Shown: positions 48,844 through 53,992 of the stretch, one piece after another
How the letters are laid out: the number at the start of each line of letters is the position of its first letter
Position numbering within the stretch: position 1 is the first letter of the stretch
Source: Leifsonia sp. Leaf336
Lineage (GTDB): Bacteria > Actinomycetota > Actinomycetes > Actinomycetales > Microbacteriaceae
DNA: 64,000 nucleotides
Assembly (NCBI RefSeq): GCF_001423695.1
Contig: NZ_LMOZ01000001.1
Location: 1,312,443 to 1,376,442 of the forward strand
Reading direction: 5' to 3'
The notes under the pieces: model-generated
The model's input: only the letters and a program-made list of their open reading frames with translations
Told to the model about the DNA's origin: nothing
The model's database searches: none
Translations under genes and position numbers: made by a program

Positions 48844-50154
<1,311 letters not shown>

Positions 50155-50155
50155 G

Positions 50156-51430
50156 GTGCGCTACCGACTGGCGGTCATCGCCGGCCGCCTCGCCCGCTGG
50201 CTTCTGCGCCTGCGGGGAGGCGGCTCCGCGGTGCCGGGGCGTGTCGCGCTCGCGATCGCGCCGAAGTTCCTCGAACGTGCTGTCAGCCGCCTCCCGCTCG
50301 GCGTCGTCTTCGTCTCCGGCTCGAACGGCAAGTCGACCACGACGAACATGCTCACGGCCATCCTGCGCGAGCACGGGCTGAACGTCTTCACGAACCCTTC
50401 CGGAGGCAACCTCCCGCAGGGGATCGCCTCCGCCCTGCTGGCCGACGTGCCGCTCGACGGCTACGTCCGCGGCGACGTCGGGGTGATCGAGGTCGACGAG
50501 GCGTACGGCGTCGATCTGGCGAACGTGCTCAAGCCGCGCGGCTCGCTGCTGCTCAACGTGCAGATCGATCAGCTCAACCGGTTCTTCGAGCCCACCCGGG
50601 TGATCGGGATGCTCCGCACCATCGCCGAGCGGTCGGGCGAGTTCGTCGTGGTGAACGCCGACGACGACAGCCTCGCGCGGGTCGGGGCCGAGCTCGCGGC
50701 CGCGGGCCGGGACGTCACCACGTTCGCGGTGGCGCCGGCGATCATCGAGTCCTCTCCGAACGGTCTCGCCAACGTCACCGACTTCTCCGGTGCGGCCGCG
50801 GGAGCGCTGCCGGTTCCGGCGGTCTTCGTCAGCAAGCTCGAGACCCAGAGCGCGCAGTTGACCATCGGCGGCGAGTCCGTCCGCATCGGCCTTCCGGCGC
50901 GCGGCCTCCATTACGCGGTCGACGCGGCCGGGGCGACCGCGATGGCGCGCCGCGTGCTGGGCGACGATTTCCGCTCGGAGGCCGTGGTCGCGGCGATGAG
51001 CTCGCTCCGGACCGTCTACGGCCGCGGCGAGACGCTGCGGGTCGGCGACGAGGACATCGAGATCATCATGATGAAGAACCCGCCGAGCCTGCAGCTCAAC
51101 CTCGACTACCTGAGCCACAGTCCCGAGCAGGTGTTCGTCTCCGTCGACGAGGGCACGCCCGATCCGTCGTGGGTGTACGACATCGACCTCTCCAAGCTGG
51201 AGCACGTCGACATCGTGTCGGGCACGAAGGCCTGGCAGTTCGCGACCCGGTTCGCCTACGCCGGCATCGAGGTCGACCAGGTGATGCCGGAGCTCAAGCC
51301 GGCCCTGCAGGCGTTCCTCGCCCTGCCGAAGCCCGCGCGCGGCACCAAGACGATGATCGTGAACTACGAGCAGATGATGGCGATCCGCAAGCAGCTGGGC
51401 TTCCTCGACCTGGAAGGCGGAGCCGCATGA
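50156..51430 (+). CDS. murT: MurT-like Mur ligase, lacking the zinc-ribbon cysteines
   Basis: A 424-residue Mur-ligase-fold protein. The ATP loop is GSNGKST (55-61) with the following TTTNMLTAIL; the C-terminal domain retains the DPSWVYDIDL segment that corresponds to the MurT ...SWIWD... motif. MurT with GatD normally amidates the alpha-carboxyl of D-Glu in lipid II. Most MurT proteins carry four cysteines of a zinc ribbon inserted in the central domain; this protein has no cysteine at all, and that region reads AIIESSPNGLANVTDFSG. The KNPAGxN block reads KNPPSLQ. The GTG start is one base after sigA, and the stop overlaps gatD as ATGA. Confidence 0.85.
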   Translation: MRYRLAVIAGRLARWLLRLRGGGSAVPGRVALAIAPKFLERAVSRLPLGVVFVSGSNGKSTTTNMLTAILREHGLNVFTNPSGGNLPQGIASALLADVPLDGYVRGDVGVIEVDEAYGVDLANVLKPRGSLLLNVQIDQLNRFFEPTRVIGMLRTIAERSGEFVVVNADDDSLARVGAELAAAGRDVTTFAVAPAIIESSPNGLANVTDFSGAAAGALPVPAVFVSKLETQSAQLTIGGESVRIGLPARGLHYAVDAAGATAMARRVLGDDFRSEAVVAAMSSLRTVYGRGETLRVGDEDIEIIMMKNPPSLQLNLDYLSHSPEQVFVSVDEGTPDPSWVYDIDLSKLEHVDIVSGTKAWQFATRFAYAGIEVDQVMPELKPALQAFLALPKPARGTKTMIVNYEQMMAIRKQLGFLDLEGGAA

Positions 51431-52143
51431 CCGTCCTGCGCATCCTCCACCTCTACCCCCGCGAGCTCGGGATCAACGGCGACGCGGGCAACGTGCTCGC
51501 GCTGGCCGAGCGTGCCCGCTGGCGCGGTGTGGAGGCCGAGGTCGTGACGCACGCACCGGGCGGCGACCTGCCCACCAGCGTCGACATCGTTCACATCGGC
51601 TCCGGACCGCTCTCATCGCAGCGCGCCGTCATCCGCGACGTCGCGCGCATCGCTCCCCAGCTGCGGCAGTGGCGGGATGCGGGCGTCCCGATCCTCGCGA
51701 TCGCCGGCGGCTGGCAGCTGCTCGGCACCGAAATCGAGACACCGGAGGGCGAGACGCTTGCGGGCGCCGGTGTCTTCCCCACGCGCGCCGCGCTCGGCTC
51801 GCGTCGTCACGTCGCCGAGGTGGTGGTGAAGACGCGCGACGGCCTCACGCTCGCCGGGTTCGAGAACCACTCCGCGACGACGAAGCTGGACGGCGGCGAG
51901 CCGCTCGGCGATGTCGTGAGCGGCTTCGGCAACGGCGACCGCACGGAGGGCGTCGTCGTCGGCAGTGCGATCGGCACGCACCTGCACGGTCCCGTCCTCC
52001 CGATGAACCCGGCTCTGGCCGACCGGCTGCTGCAGACCGCGTTGCGCGGCGAGCTTCCGCCGGTCACGCAGACCGAGCGCGTCGACCGCTACGCGACGAA
52101 CGCCCGCCGGGCGATCGCCGAGCGCCTCAACGTCGCGCTCTGA
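51427..52143 (+). CDS. gatD: GatD-like amidotransferase, nucleophile cysteine replaced
   Basis: A 238-residue protein of the class I (CobB/CobQ-like) glutaminase fold. HLYPRELGINGDAGNVLALAERARWRG and the GTHLHGPVLPMNP block (catalytic His187) match GatD well. The nucleophile position, ICGGYQ in Staphylococcus GatD (Cys94), reads IAGGWQ here, with Ala93 encoded by GCC at 51703-51705. The Gln-contacting FENHGGRT reads FENHSATT. The protein has no cysteine, so it cannot hydrolyse glutamine by the usual mechanism. It may act as a structural partner of MurT. Confidence 0.87.
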   Translation: MTVLRILHLYPRELGINGDAGNVLALAERARWRGVEAEVVTHAPGGDLPTSVDIVHIGSGPLSSQRAVIRDVARIAPQLRQWRDAGVPILAIAGGWQLLGTEIETPEGETLAGAGVFPTRAALGSRRHVAEVVVKTRDGLTLAGFENHSATTKLDGGEPLGDVVSGFGNGDRTEGVVVGSAIGTHLHGPVLPMNPALADRLLQTALRGELPPVTQTERVDRYATNARRAIAERLNVAL

Positions 52144-52158
52144 CACCCGGGAGGGTGG

Positions 52159-53235
52159 TCAGTTCTCGTAGACGCGGGGGACGCGCGCGCCGACGCCGGT
52201 GACCATCTCGTCGGCGATCGTCTCGGCCCAGTCGGCGTACTTCTCCGCGGTGACGTCACCGGACCGGCCGGTGCCGAACAGCACGGCCGTGTCGCCCACG
52301 TTCACCCGGGCGGAGCCGGGGTCGACGATCATCGAGTCGACCTCCACGTCGATCACCGGGCAGCGGTGGCCGCCCAGCAGAACGGACGTCTTGGCTATGC
52401 CGAGCGTCGGCACACCGTCGCCATAGCCGATCGCGAGCCGCGCGCGGGTGGTTCCGCCGACGTGGACCTCGGTGACGGGGGCCTCCAGGCGCATCACGGG
52501 CTCCAGCCCGAGCTCCGCGCCCGTGCAGTTGTCGAACGGCGAGAACCCGTAGGCGGCGATGCCGAAGCGCACGAAGTCGAATCGTGCCTCCGGCATGCGG
52601 ATGCCTGCTGAACTCGCCGCGAGGTGCAGCACCTCGAACCGGGCACCCCGCTCCTCCGCCTCGGCGACCGCGCTCCGGAACTCCACGAGTGCGGCCTCGT
52701 CGTCGGCGATGGAGGCGTCTGCCAGGTGCGACCACGCGGCACGGATCCGGACGATCCCGCGCCGCTCGAGGTCGAGGGCGGTGTCGATCAGGTGCGGCCA
52801 CTCCTCACGCGTTGCGCCGTTGCGGCTGAGCCCGGTGTCGACCTTGAGGTGCACCACCGCGGGCCGGTCGGCGCCGGCCTCGGCGATCGCCTTCAGCTGC
52901 CAGACCGCGGAGATGCCGAGCTCGATGTCGACCTCGATCGCGGCGCGCCAGTCGGTGTCGCGGCCGTGCAGCCACGCGAGGAGCGGAACCGTGATGCCCG
53001 CACTGCGCAGCACGAGCCCGGCCGGGACCTCCAGCACGGCGAGGGAGGTCGCCCCCGCCTCCAGCCCGGCCTCCGCGATCGGGATCAGGCCGTGGCCGTA
53101 CGCGTCCGCTTTCACGGCGAGCATGGTCTGCGCCGGGGCGATCAACTGGGTGAGATGCGCCACATTGCGGCGGAGGGCCGCCAGATCGATGACCGCGCGG
53201 GGGAGGGGCTCGGCGATCGCGTCCACGATGGTCAT
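52159..53235 (-). CDS. Alanine racemase paralogue 1: PLP barrel intact, catalytic Tyr absent
   Basis: A 358-residue fold-type III PLP enzyme. The barrel is complete: Lys42 in AVKADAYGHG binds PLP, KVDTGLSRNG supplies the conserved Arg, HLAASSAG the phosphate site, and FVRFGIAAYG the Arg facing the PLP ring nitrogen. The C-terminal domain is altered. The SYGxTY motif that contains the catalytic tyrosine (Tyr265 in Geobacillus Alr) reads VHVGGTT with Val259 in its place and a 7-residue shortening before GYGDG, and the CMDQ motif reads VEVDSM. It starts 28 bases after Alr2 with GAGGAG upstream, in one operon. Confidence 0.88.
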   Translation of the reverse strand: MTIVDAIAEPLPRAVIDLAALRRNVAHLTQLIAPAQTMLAVKADAYGHGLIPIAEAGLEAGATSLAVLEVPAGLVLRSAGITVPLLAWLHGRDTDWRAAIEVDIELGISAVWQLKAIAEAGADRPAVVHLKVDTGLSRNGATREEWPHLIDTALDLERRGIVRIRAAWSHLADASIADDEAALVEFRSAVAEAEERGARFEVLHLAASSAGIRMPEARFDFVRFGIAAYGFSPFDNCTGAELGLEPVMRLEAPVTEVHVGGTTRARLAIGYGDGVPTLGIAKTSVLLGGHRCPVIDVEVDSMIVDPGSARVNVGDTAVLFGTGRSGDVTAEKYADWAETIADEMVTGVGARVPRVYEN

Positions 53236-53263
53236 GCGGCGCTGCTCCTCGTGCTGTCGGTGG

Positions 53264-53992
53264 TCACGGCGTGTAAACCCGTTCGATGCGTCGGCCCAGC
53301 CGGCTCGCGATGACCGGCGCGGCGACGCCGAGCGCGGCCTCCCAGTCGGCCGCCGAGGGTTCGCCGCGCGCCGGGTCGCCGAACAGGATGACCGGATCGC
53401 CGGGAACGGCGTCGGCGTCGCCGATGTCGACGACGAACTGGTCCATCGCGATGCGGCCGGTGATTCGCCCCGTCGTCTCGCCGACGAGCACGGGCGCCTT
53501 GTTGGACGCCACCCGCAGGATGCCGTCGGCGTAGCCGAGCGCGACCAGCACGAGCGTGCTCGGTCGCGCGGTGCGGTACGTGTAGCCGTACGACACGCCC
53601 CGGTCGGCCCCGACGCGCTTGACGGCGATGATCTCGCCGGTCAGCCGAAGGGCGGCAGCCGTCGGCCGGGAGGCGATGAGACCGAACAACTCGGGGCCGA
53701 GGAGGTTCTCCGGACCGCGAGCATGGCGGCCGGCCGGGACTCCGATATGGGCGGGGACGGGAATGCCCTCATCGGCCAGGGCCGAAGCGTCCTCCACCCG
53801 GGAGACGAGAAAACCGCCGACCCCCGCGTCCGTCAGCGCACGCGCCACGGGGATGAGCCCGTGGCCGTACGCGTCGGCGCGGAGGTCGGCGGTGCAGTCG
53901 GGGAGGGGTGCGGTGGCTGTCTCTGAAGCGTTCGAGCGGATGGCGTCGAGATCGACGAATGCGCGTCTGCGCACGCCGGTGGCTCCTGCCAT
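53264..53992 (-). CDS. Alanine racemase paralogue 2: C-terminal domain intact, PLP lysine and half of barrel absent
   Basis: A short (242 aa) racemase relative. The PLP-lysine motif reads LRADAYGHG, with Arg38 (codon 53879-53881) for Lys. About 130 residues of the barrel, including the usual PLP-contact residues, are missing between residues 85 and 125. The C-terminal domain is well preserved: GVSYGYTY (Tyr135, equivalent to the catalytic Tyr265), GYADG (Tyr154) and GRIAMDQ (Met183). Alone it cannot bind PLP normally. It lies upstream of Alr1 in the same operon and complements exactly what Alr1 lacks. Confidence 0.87.
   Translation of the reverse strand: MAGATGVRRRAFVDLDAIRSNASETATAPLPDCTADLRADAYGHGLIPVARALTDAGVGGFLVSRVEDASALADEGIPVPAHIGVPAGRHARGPENLLGPELFGLIASRPTAAALRLTGEIIAVKRVGADRGVSYGYTYRTARPSTLVLVALGYADGILRVASNKAPVLVGETTGRITGRIAMDQFVVDIGDADAVPGDPVILFGDPARGEPSAADWEAALGVAAPVIASRLGRRIERVYTP

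Follow-up and report, generated by a model that had tools for sequence, protein, structure and literature searches.

The window, a 64-kb stretch of DNA from Leifsonia sp. Leaf336, contains two adjacent genes of the alanine racemase (Alr) family, alr2 and alr1, with the following features. Positions follow Geobacillus Alr, with a match of motifs to numbers that we take to be correct, and were assigned by motif in an alignment with the canonical alr of the window genome.

53264..53992, minus strand: alr2, leading gene of the operon, encoding the 242-aa Y-type subunit; residual barrel and complete C domain
53879..53881, minus strand: Arg38 of Alr2, at the position of the PLP lysine (Lys39); codon checked
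53588..53590, minus strand: Tyr135 of Alr2, equivalent to the catalytic Tyr265'; codon checked
53444..53446, minus strand: Met183 of Alr2, equivalent to Met312' (MDQ motif); codon checked
53236..53263, minus strand: 28-nt gap from the alr2 stop to the alr1 ATG, with a ribosome-binding-like GAGGAG upstream of that ATG
52159..53235, minus strand: alr1, encoding the 358-aa K-type subunit; the PLP barrel is complete, and the C domain has lost the Tyr265 loop and MDQ
53110..53112, minus strand: Lys42 of Alr1, equivalent to the PLP-binding Lys39; codon checked
52432..52470, minus strand: approximate place of the Tyr265-loop deletion in Alr1, ~16 residues; from the alignment
52210..52212, minus strand: Asp342 of Alr1, at the Tyr354 substrate-specificity position; from the alignment, codon checked

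An earlier note on this DNA had described two intact frames 28 nt apart in one operon, with a ribosome-binding site for alr1, and the minus-strand open reading frames at 53992-53264 and 53235-52159 and the GAGGAG motif agree with that description. No promoter- or terminator-like match was found in the alr2-alr1 region. Lys42 and a complete barrel are present in Alr1 as claimed (Pfam N domain whole, 1-220), and the MDQ motif is indeed gone, with VDS in its place; the C domain is matched at positions 32-127 only, without 1-31. The claim that Val259 replaces the catalytic tyrosine had to be corrected: ~16 residues with the Tyr265 loop are deleted instead. For Alr2, codon checks upheld Arg38, Tyr135 and Met183, and the barrel is largely lost (N domain positions 1-71 only, C domain 2-127). 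Neither protein unites a full N domain with a full C domain, and neither combines the lysine with the tyrosine, the former being found only in Alr1 and the latter only in Alr2. Alr1 passes the TIGR00492 cut-off (192.9 versus 168 bits), and Alr2 falls below it (126.6 bits). At the Tyr354 position, where Alr1 has Asp342, Alr2 has Pro in the alignment. Alr1 is 94.1% identical to its counterpart in L. shinshuensis (L080). A search for another alr in the genome, as had been suggested, found two further full-length copies (C1:627444-628520 and C2:199367-200431), and the split pair is unlikely to act as the principal alanine racemase of Leifsonia sp. Leaf336.

Relatives of both genes were collected in several searches. 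An Alr2 search of 299 family genomes, with loci fetched for 30 of its best places, gave 27 loci with a short Y-type gene and an adjoining K-type gene, two with two intact alr in tandem (L039, L040), and one with a single alr (L042). A DNA pattern scan for the Arg-bearing motif in one genome per species (84,980 species) returned 52 loci; ten of these, which lack any alr-like gene, were set aside (L057, L058, L061, L075, L083-L086, L089, L093), and 42 contain Alr2. A K-type gene adjoins it in 39 of the 42 (in two frames in L074), and the sequence ends inside or just past the Alr2 gene in the other three (L047, L052, L059). The pair was found in Leifsonia, Agreia, Pseudoclavibacter, Gulosibacter, Homoserinibacter, Salinibacterium, Diaminobutyricibacter, and Protaetiibacter, and also in Microbacterium (M. 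mangrovi and MAGs) and in MAGs with wider labels. An Alr1 search of 299 family genomes added 40 regions and later nine more, with one from an order search; these ten later regions hold six K-type genes, each with a reciprocal Y-type, and four single intact alr. At E <= 1e-78, the order-wide search matched 5 of 396 genomes, all of the same family; among them are the window genome, another genome with a pair (G584, L186), and one with a canonical alr (G142, L173). As this cut-off would miss weaker K-types and the pattern scan detects Arg-motif Y-types only, split pairs may also occur outside the family.

Residues were counted at loci L013-L174, which hold 287 alr-like rows including the two canonical alr of the window genome; 16 truncated rows were left out, and 271 complete rows remain. 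Row counts exceed genome counts because some loci were fetched twice, and the residues of L175-L193 were read separately, outside the counts. Classes were defined by K39 and Y265, and for Y-types also by M312, with other sites free; D or E at position 354 separates K_D from K_Y among the K-types. No complete row (0/271) fell outside the intact, K-type, or Y-type classes.

Alanine racemase is a well-studied homodimer with shared active sites and an antibacterial drug target; His166 is one of its barrel residues. As described in the available portions of three papers (PMC3485190, PMC4517790, PMC3245724), each site joins Lys39 of one subunit to Tyr265' of the other, with Tyr43, KCX129, Arg136, Ser204, Arg219, and Tyr354 unprimed and Tyr265', Tyr284', Arg290', Arg309', and Met312' derived from the partner. 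Arg309 is printed without a prime in that portion of PMC3245724, and the matching arginine is primed in those of PMC3485190 and PMC4517790.

The survey shows these residues divided between the two genes. Tyr265 and Met312 are absent from all 83 unique K-types, in which six barrel positions are identical throughout. Each of K39, Y43, K129, R136, H166, S204, and R219 is present in 74/74 unique K_D proteins, Y265 and M312 in none, R290 in 3, and R309 in 1; position 354 is D in 55 and E in 19. The nine unique K_Y proteins all have K39, Y43, K129, R136, H166, R219, and Y354, with Thr at 204 (9/9), and none has Y265, M312, R290, or R309. Unique Y-types number 88, of which 80 are short and 8 are long-barrel: Y265, M312, and R290 are found in 88/88, Tyr or Phe at 284 in 88/88, and R309 in 78, while K39 (Arg in 67) and Tyr at 354 are found in none. 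Of the intact proteins, 22 have Asp354, and 41 have another residue there, namely Tyr (34), His, Ala, or Trp. Lys39 is replaced and most other PLP-site residues are lost in the eight long-barrel Y-types as well; therefore, the catalytic loss is independent of the barrel deletion. Whether relatives repeat the reciprocal loss was a check named in the earlier note, and every complete pair examined in related genomes does so without exception. A coupling of Arg39 (Y) with Asp313 (K) gave p = 0.004 over 79 pairs; we do not rely on it because the value is 0.07 within the first pair type and is uncorrected for descent.

The two genes are also tightly linked. A Y-type partner lies in the locus of 96 of 98 K-type rows, adjacent on the same strand in 89 and fused in 7, and the remaining two (L135, L170) lie where a contig ends, L170 still showing a cut-off piece of its partner; no orthologue keeping one gene only was seen, a pattern that the same note had listed as speaking against a heterodimer. 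Conversely, a K-type is present in the locus of 107/107 Y-type rows. In the 89 separate pairs, the two matches lie no more than 51 nt apart, and the order is Y-K in 84/84 separate K_D pairs. Fusions in a single frame occur as Y-K (L099, L161, L168) and as K-Y (L115-L118, L175-L178), all read as open frames; in L099, a single open frame of 832 codons covers both the Y and the K half, which are separated by an Ala-rich stretch. Window-type pair loci of at least 7.9 kb (n = 56) have parE, parC, or DUF7455 in reach in 55, rpoD in 44, murT or gatD in 39, and tsaE in none. The surroundings are different at 21/21 tandem loci and 9/9 second-pair loci (both described below), which have tsaE and none of parE/parC/DUF7455, rpoD, or murT/gatD. 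At one locus (L157, G225), 8 kb of DNA carry two window-type pairs that differ from each other, the Y-type being short in one and long-barrel in the other.

From the sequences, residue partition, linkage, fusions, and K-type tree, we infer the assembly and activity of a heterodimer: Alr1 and Alr2 very likely form an obligate heterodimeric PLP-dependent racemase with one active site, the reading already put forward in the earlier note and supported overall by this analysis. Alr1 would hold PLP on Lys42 in its barrel and contribute the residues from the PLP-binding side of the site. Across the interface, Alr2 would give the second catalytic base, Tyr135 (Tyr265'), together with Met183 (Met312') and Arg290'/Arg309'. 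The mirror-image second site of the old homodimer would be dead, as Alr2 is without Lys39 and most of the barrel and Alr1 is without the tyrosine loop. The pair is like alanine racemase (PF01168 + PF00842; TIGR00492) in its domains, PLP lysine, catalytic tyrosine, MDQ, and two-subunit site. Described alanine racemases, in contrast, are homodimers with two equal sites, whereas the residues of the window pair lie on two genes and could make one site at most.

Intact relatives of the PLP subunit survive. In 21 of 299 genomes, a canonical alr and an intact copy with Asp354 lie in tandem before tsaE; the Asp354 copy has all catalytic residues, and this tandem differs from the window pair in that all residues of both sites are present. 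At 10 of the 21 tandem loci (L110, L147-L154, L156), the Asp354-type alr and tsaE share one open frame and appear to be an Alr-TsaE fusion. A tree of 43 selected rows united the K_D proteins, Alr1 among them, with the intact Asp354 copy in one clade (100/100) and placed the K_Y proteins with canonical alr (100/100). A single origin of K_D and K_Y was rejected in this tree (AU p = 1.2e-37); therefore, the Tyr265 loop was lost independently at least twice. A C-domain tree of 140 thinned rows placed 57 of 59 Y-types, including Alr2, on the canonical side; the two exceptions, both belonging to the tsaE-linked pair of Agreia, fell within the clade of intact Asp354 copies, where a second tree of 67 rows again placed three Agreia Y-types (99/87). 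All Y-types as one clade was not rejected (AU p = 0.103). The Pseudoclavibacter and Gulosibacter Y halves, which have long branches, cluster with those of the first pair, and this placement stands against a simple two-event picture.

By its place in the tree, the PLP subunit is a descendant of the intact Asp354 alr lineage, a racemase whose intact copies survive behind canonical alr in relatives; this origin goes beyond the earlier note. The tyrosine donor would come from the canonical side of the C-domain tree, and the pair would have replaced the intact Asp354 racemase in its function. The K_D gene is present in at least 61 of 299 genomes (in 60 the partner is visible in whole or in part, and in 1 the gene lies at a contig end), and none of the 21 genomes with the intact Asp354 copy has K_D too among the matches listed. 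We infer that both halves descended from one tandem; if the placement of the Agreia Y-types holds, the two pairs would be mirror images of one ancestral tandem.

The second pair was found in Agreia, in reversed order (K-type first in 5/5) and before tsaE, where the housekeeping alr has its place. Tyr354 is retained in the K-type of this pair, and Thr occupies the lysine position of the Y-type. In Pseudoclavibacter and Gulosibacter, a K half and a Y half lie in one long frame; tsaE beside this fusion was checked for L115-L118 only. The substrate of the Agreia-type pair is probably alanine. Pseudoclavibacter L119-L121 carry, as a separate gene, an additional Bar-like racemase with Ala at the Tyr354 position, and a separate gene in Microbacterium mangrovi (L182) is Bar-like by resemblance.

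No intact alr was found in 11 genomes, which have split or fused pairs only: seven of Agreia (G192, G238, G077, G278, G140, G306, and G312, a count in which four genomes searched twice are merged), two of Gulosibacter (L044, L053), P. helvolus (L069), and G234. Each has four Ala_racemase_C matches, all within pairs, and full-length strong Ala_racemase_N matches in its two K-types only; the next Ala_racemase_N matches reach at most 68 bits, have no C domain, and are presumably of the YggS type. D-Ala-D-Ala ligase (Ddl) was present in all nine of these genomes that were searched (all but G306 and G312). A search of six of them (the other five Agreia and G234) for D-alanine transaminase (TIGR01121) gave only weak class-IV aminotransferase matches far below the cut-off (best match, 64.4 against 277.45 bits). 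With no intact alr in these 11 genomes, the split or fused pair very probably makes their D-alanine, if it is made in the cell, and their gene content suggests that activity needs the heteromer. These genomes, the fusions, and the second independent split are support for the heterodimer that the earlier note did not have.

The substrate of the window pair was considered from position 354 and its ancestry. Tyr354 gates substrate choice in Alr according to the accessible text of PMC3485190 and PMC4517790. Judging from Asp at 354 and the intact Asp354 ancestor, the window pair probably acts on something other than alanine. Our guess is that it serves group-B peptidoglycan by acting on a diamino acid, namely 2,4-diaminobutyrate, ornithine, or lysine, a reading that rests on one residue change and on the cell-wall composition of the family. 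An acidic residue at the Tyr354 place could hold the side-chain amine, with about an even chance at best. For family peptidoglycan, mostly of group-B types, the portions seen of PMC10757982 and PMC7033078 list D-ornithine, D-lysine, or 2,4-diaminobutyrate, with L-lysine and L-diaminobutyrate also reported in some genera, and a passage of PMC6113628 gives "DAB or D-ornithine" for Gulosibacter.

A real heterodimer might also make D-alanine (or D-serine) rather than a D-diamino acid in the window's case, which we regard as a distinct if lesser possibility. Membership of the Alr family and the Agreia-type pair, which keeps Tyr354 and probably serves alanine, point that way, as does the report, in excerpts of PMC3485190 and PMC4517790, that changing Tyr354 in Geobacillus Alr alters its substrate choice. 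Position 354, however, is Asp or Glu in 74/74 K_D proteins, the intact Asp354 copy stands beside a canonical alr in 21/21 tandem loci, and the window genome already has two intact alr; the pair is therefore dispensable for D-alanine there. Lyr and Bar racemases are alike in having the Alr fold, a replaced Tyr354, and larger substrates (PMC3485190, in part). They differ in being homodimers, according to the same excerpt, and in having Thr or Ala at 354, found in none of the 74 K_D proteins, which have Asp or Glu. We found no PLP-dependent racemase for the D-diamino acids of group-B peptidoglycan described in the open-access literature; a diaminobutyrate racemase that is PLP independent and belongs to another pathway is described in the part of PMC8225329 available to us.

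Under a different reading, Alr1 alone is the enzyme, working as a monomer or as a homodimer that uses some other proton donor, with Alr2 as a regulatory, activating, or stabilising pseudoenzyme. There is precedent for this: in trypanosomatids, deoxyhypusine synthase and AdoMetDC form heteromers with prozymes, catalytically dead paralogues that activate an impaired but active subunit (PMC3663545, as far as its text was available). The Alr pair likewise consists of paralogous partners of which one lacks catalytic residues. It is unlike the prozyme systems, apart from the other enzyme and domain of life, in that both partners lack some, the losses are complementary, and neither homodimer is predicted to form a site. 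A purely regulatory role would not explain why Y-types keep Arg290 (88/88), Arg309 (78/88), Tyr265, and Met312 after losing their own PLP site, nor why Alr1 lost exactly those residues. Given these trans residues, kept in Alr2 and lost in Alr1, we rejected a solo regulator as the main reading and consider it improbable.

Median dN/dS was 0.34 for Alr2 and 0.20 for Alr1 over 11 Leifsonia-type loci, in which both genes are under purifying selection, and 0.25 for canonical alr (n = 4); the decay of Alr2 in relatives that had been raised as a counter-indication was not seen. In Homoserinibacter gongjuensis (L181, L052), both pair genes are frame-broken near their 3' ends, and parC is broken in the same record, so that sequence errors are likely; Alr1 is split over two frames in one MAG (L074). 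Decay of one or both genes into functionless duplicates, which the large deletions, the lost catalytic residues, the two intact alr elsewhere in the genome, and these broken pairs might suggest, is highly improbable and was rejected as a simple pseudogene reading in view of the dN/dS values, the invariant trans residues, the constant linkage and place, the fusions, the genomes in which no other alr was found, and the broken parC of the H. gongjuensis record.

With the obligate heterodimer as the preferred reading, a broader history can be sketched tentatively, at somewhat less than even likelihood. Tandem racemases, perhaps once cross-dimerising, would have become single-site heterodimers by reciprocal loss in both directions, keeping the Asp354 site in the window's pair (for a D-diamino acid of group-B peptidoglycan) versus the alanine site in Agreia, Gulosibacter, and Pseudoclavibacter. 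Whole genera would have been left without a homodimeric alanine racemase, and some pairs would have fused into one chain. The active site of one family appears to have been split between two genes at least twice, and intact tandem duplicates, long-barrel intermediates, and fusions, all still found in living species, may together document with rare completeness the evolution of an obligate heteromer through complementary loss. The pair is also a candidate for the enzyme that provides group-B peptidoglycan with its D-diamino acids. We found no split or heterodimeric alanine racemase described in the open-access literature and nothing there on alanine racemase in Leifsonia; the matches for Microbacteriaceae were unrelated by title or the start of the abstract.

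Two further observations concern the genome of Leifsonia sp. Leaf336. The C2 alr, outside the window, has His at the Tyr354 position and adjoins a D-Ala-D-Ala-ligase-like gene (G000:C2:199367-201440); the two could be a small accessory D-amino-acid ligase cluster. Within the window, the genes at 50066-52143, which we take to be murT-gatD, adjoin the pair and are convergent with alr1, a neighbourhood that possibly reflects a functional link to group-B cross-linking.
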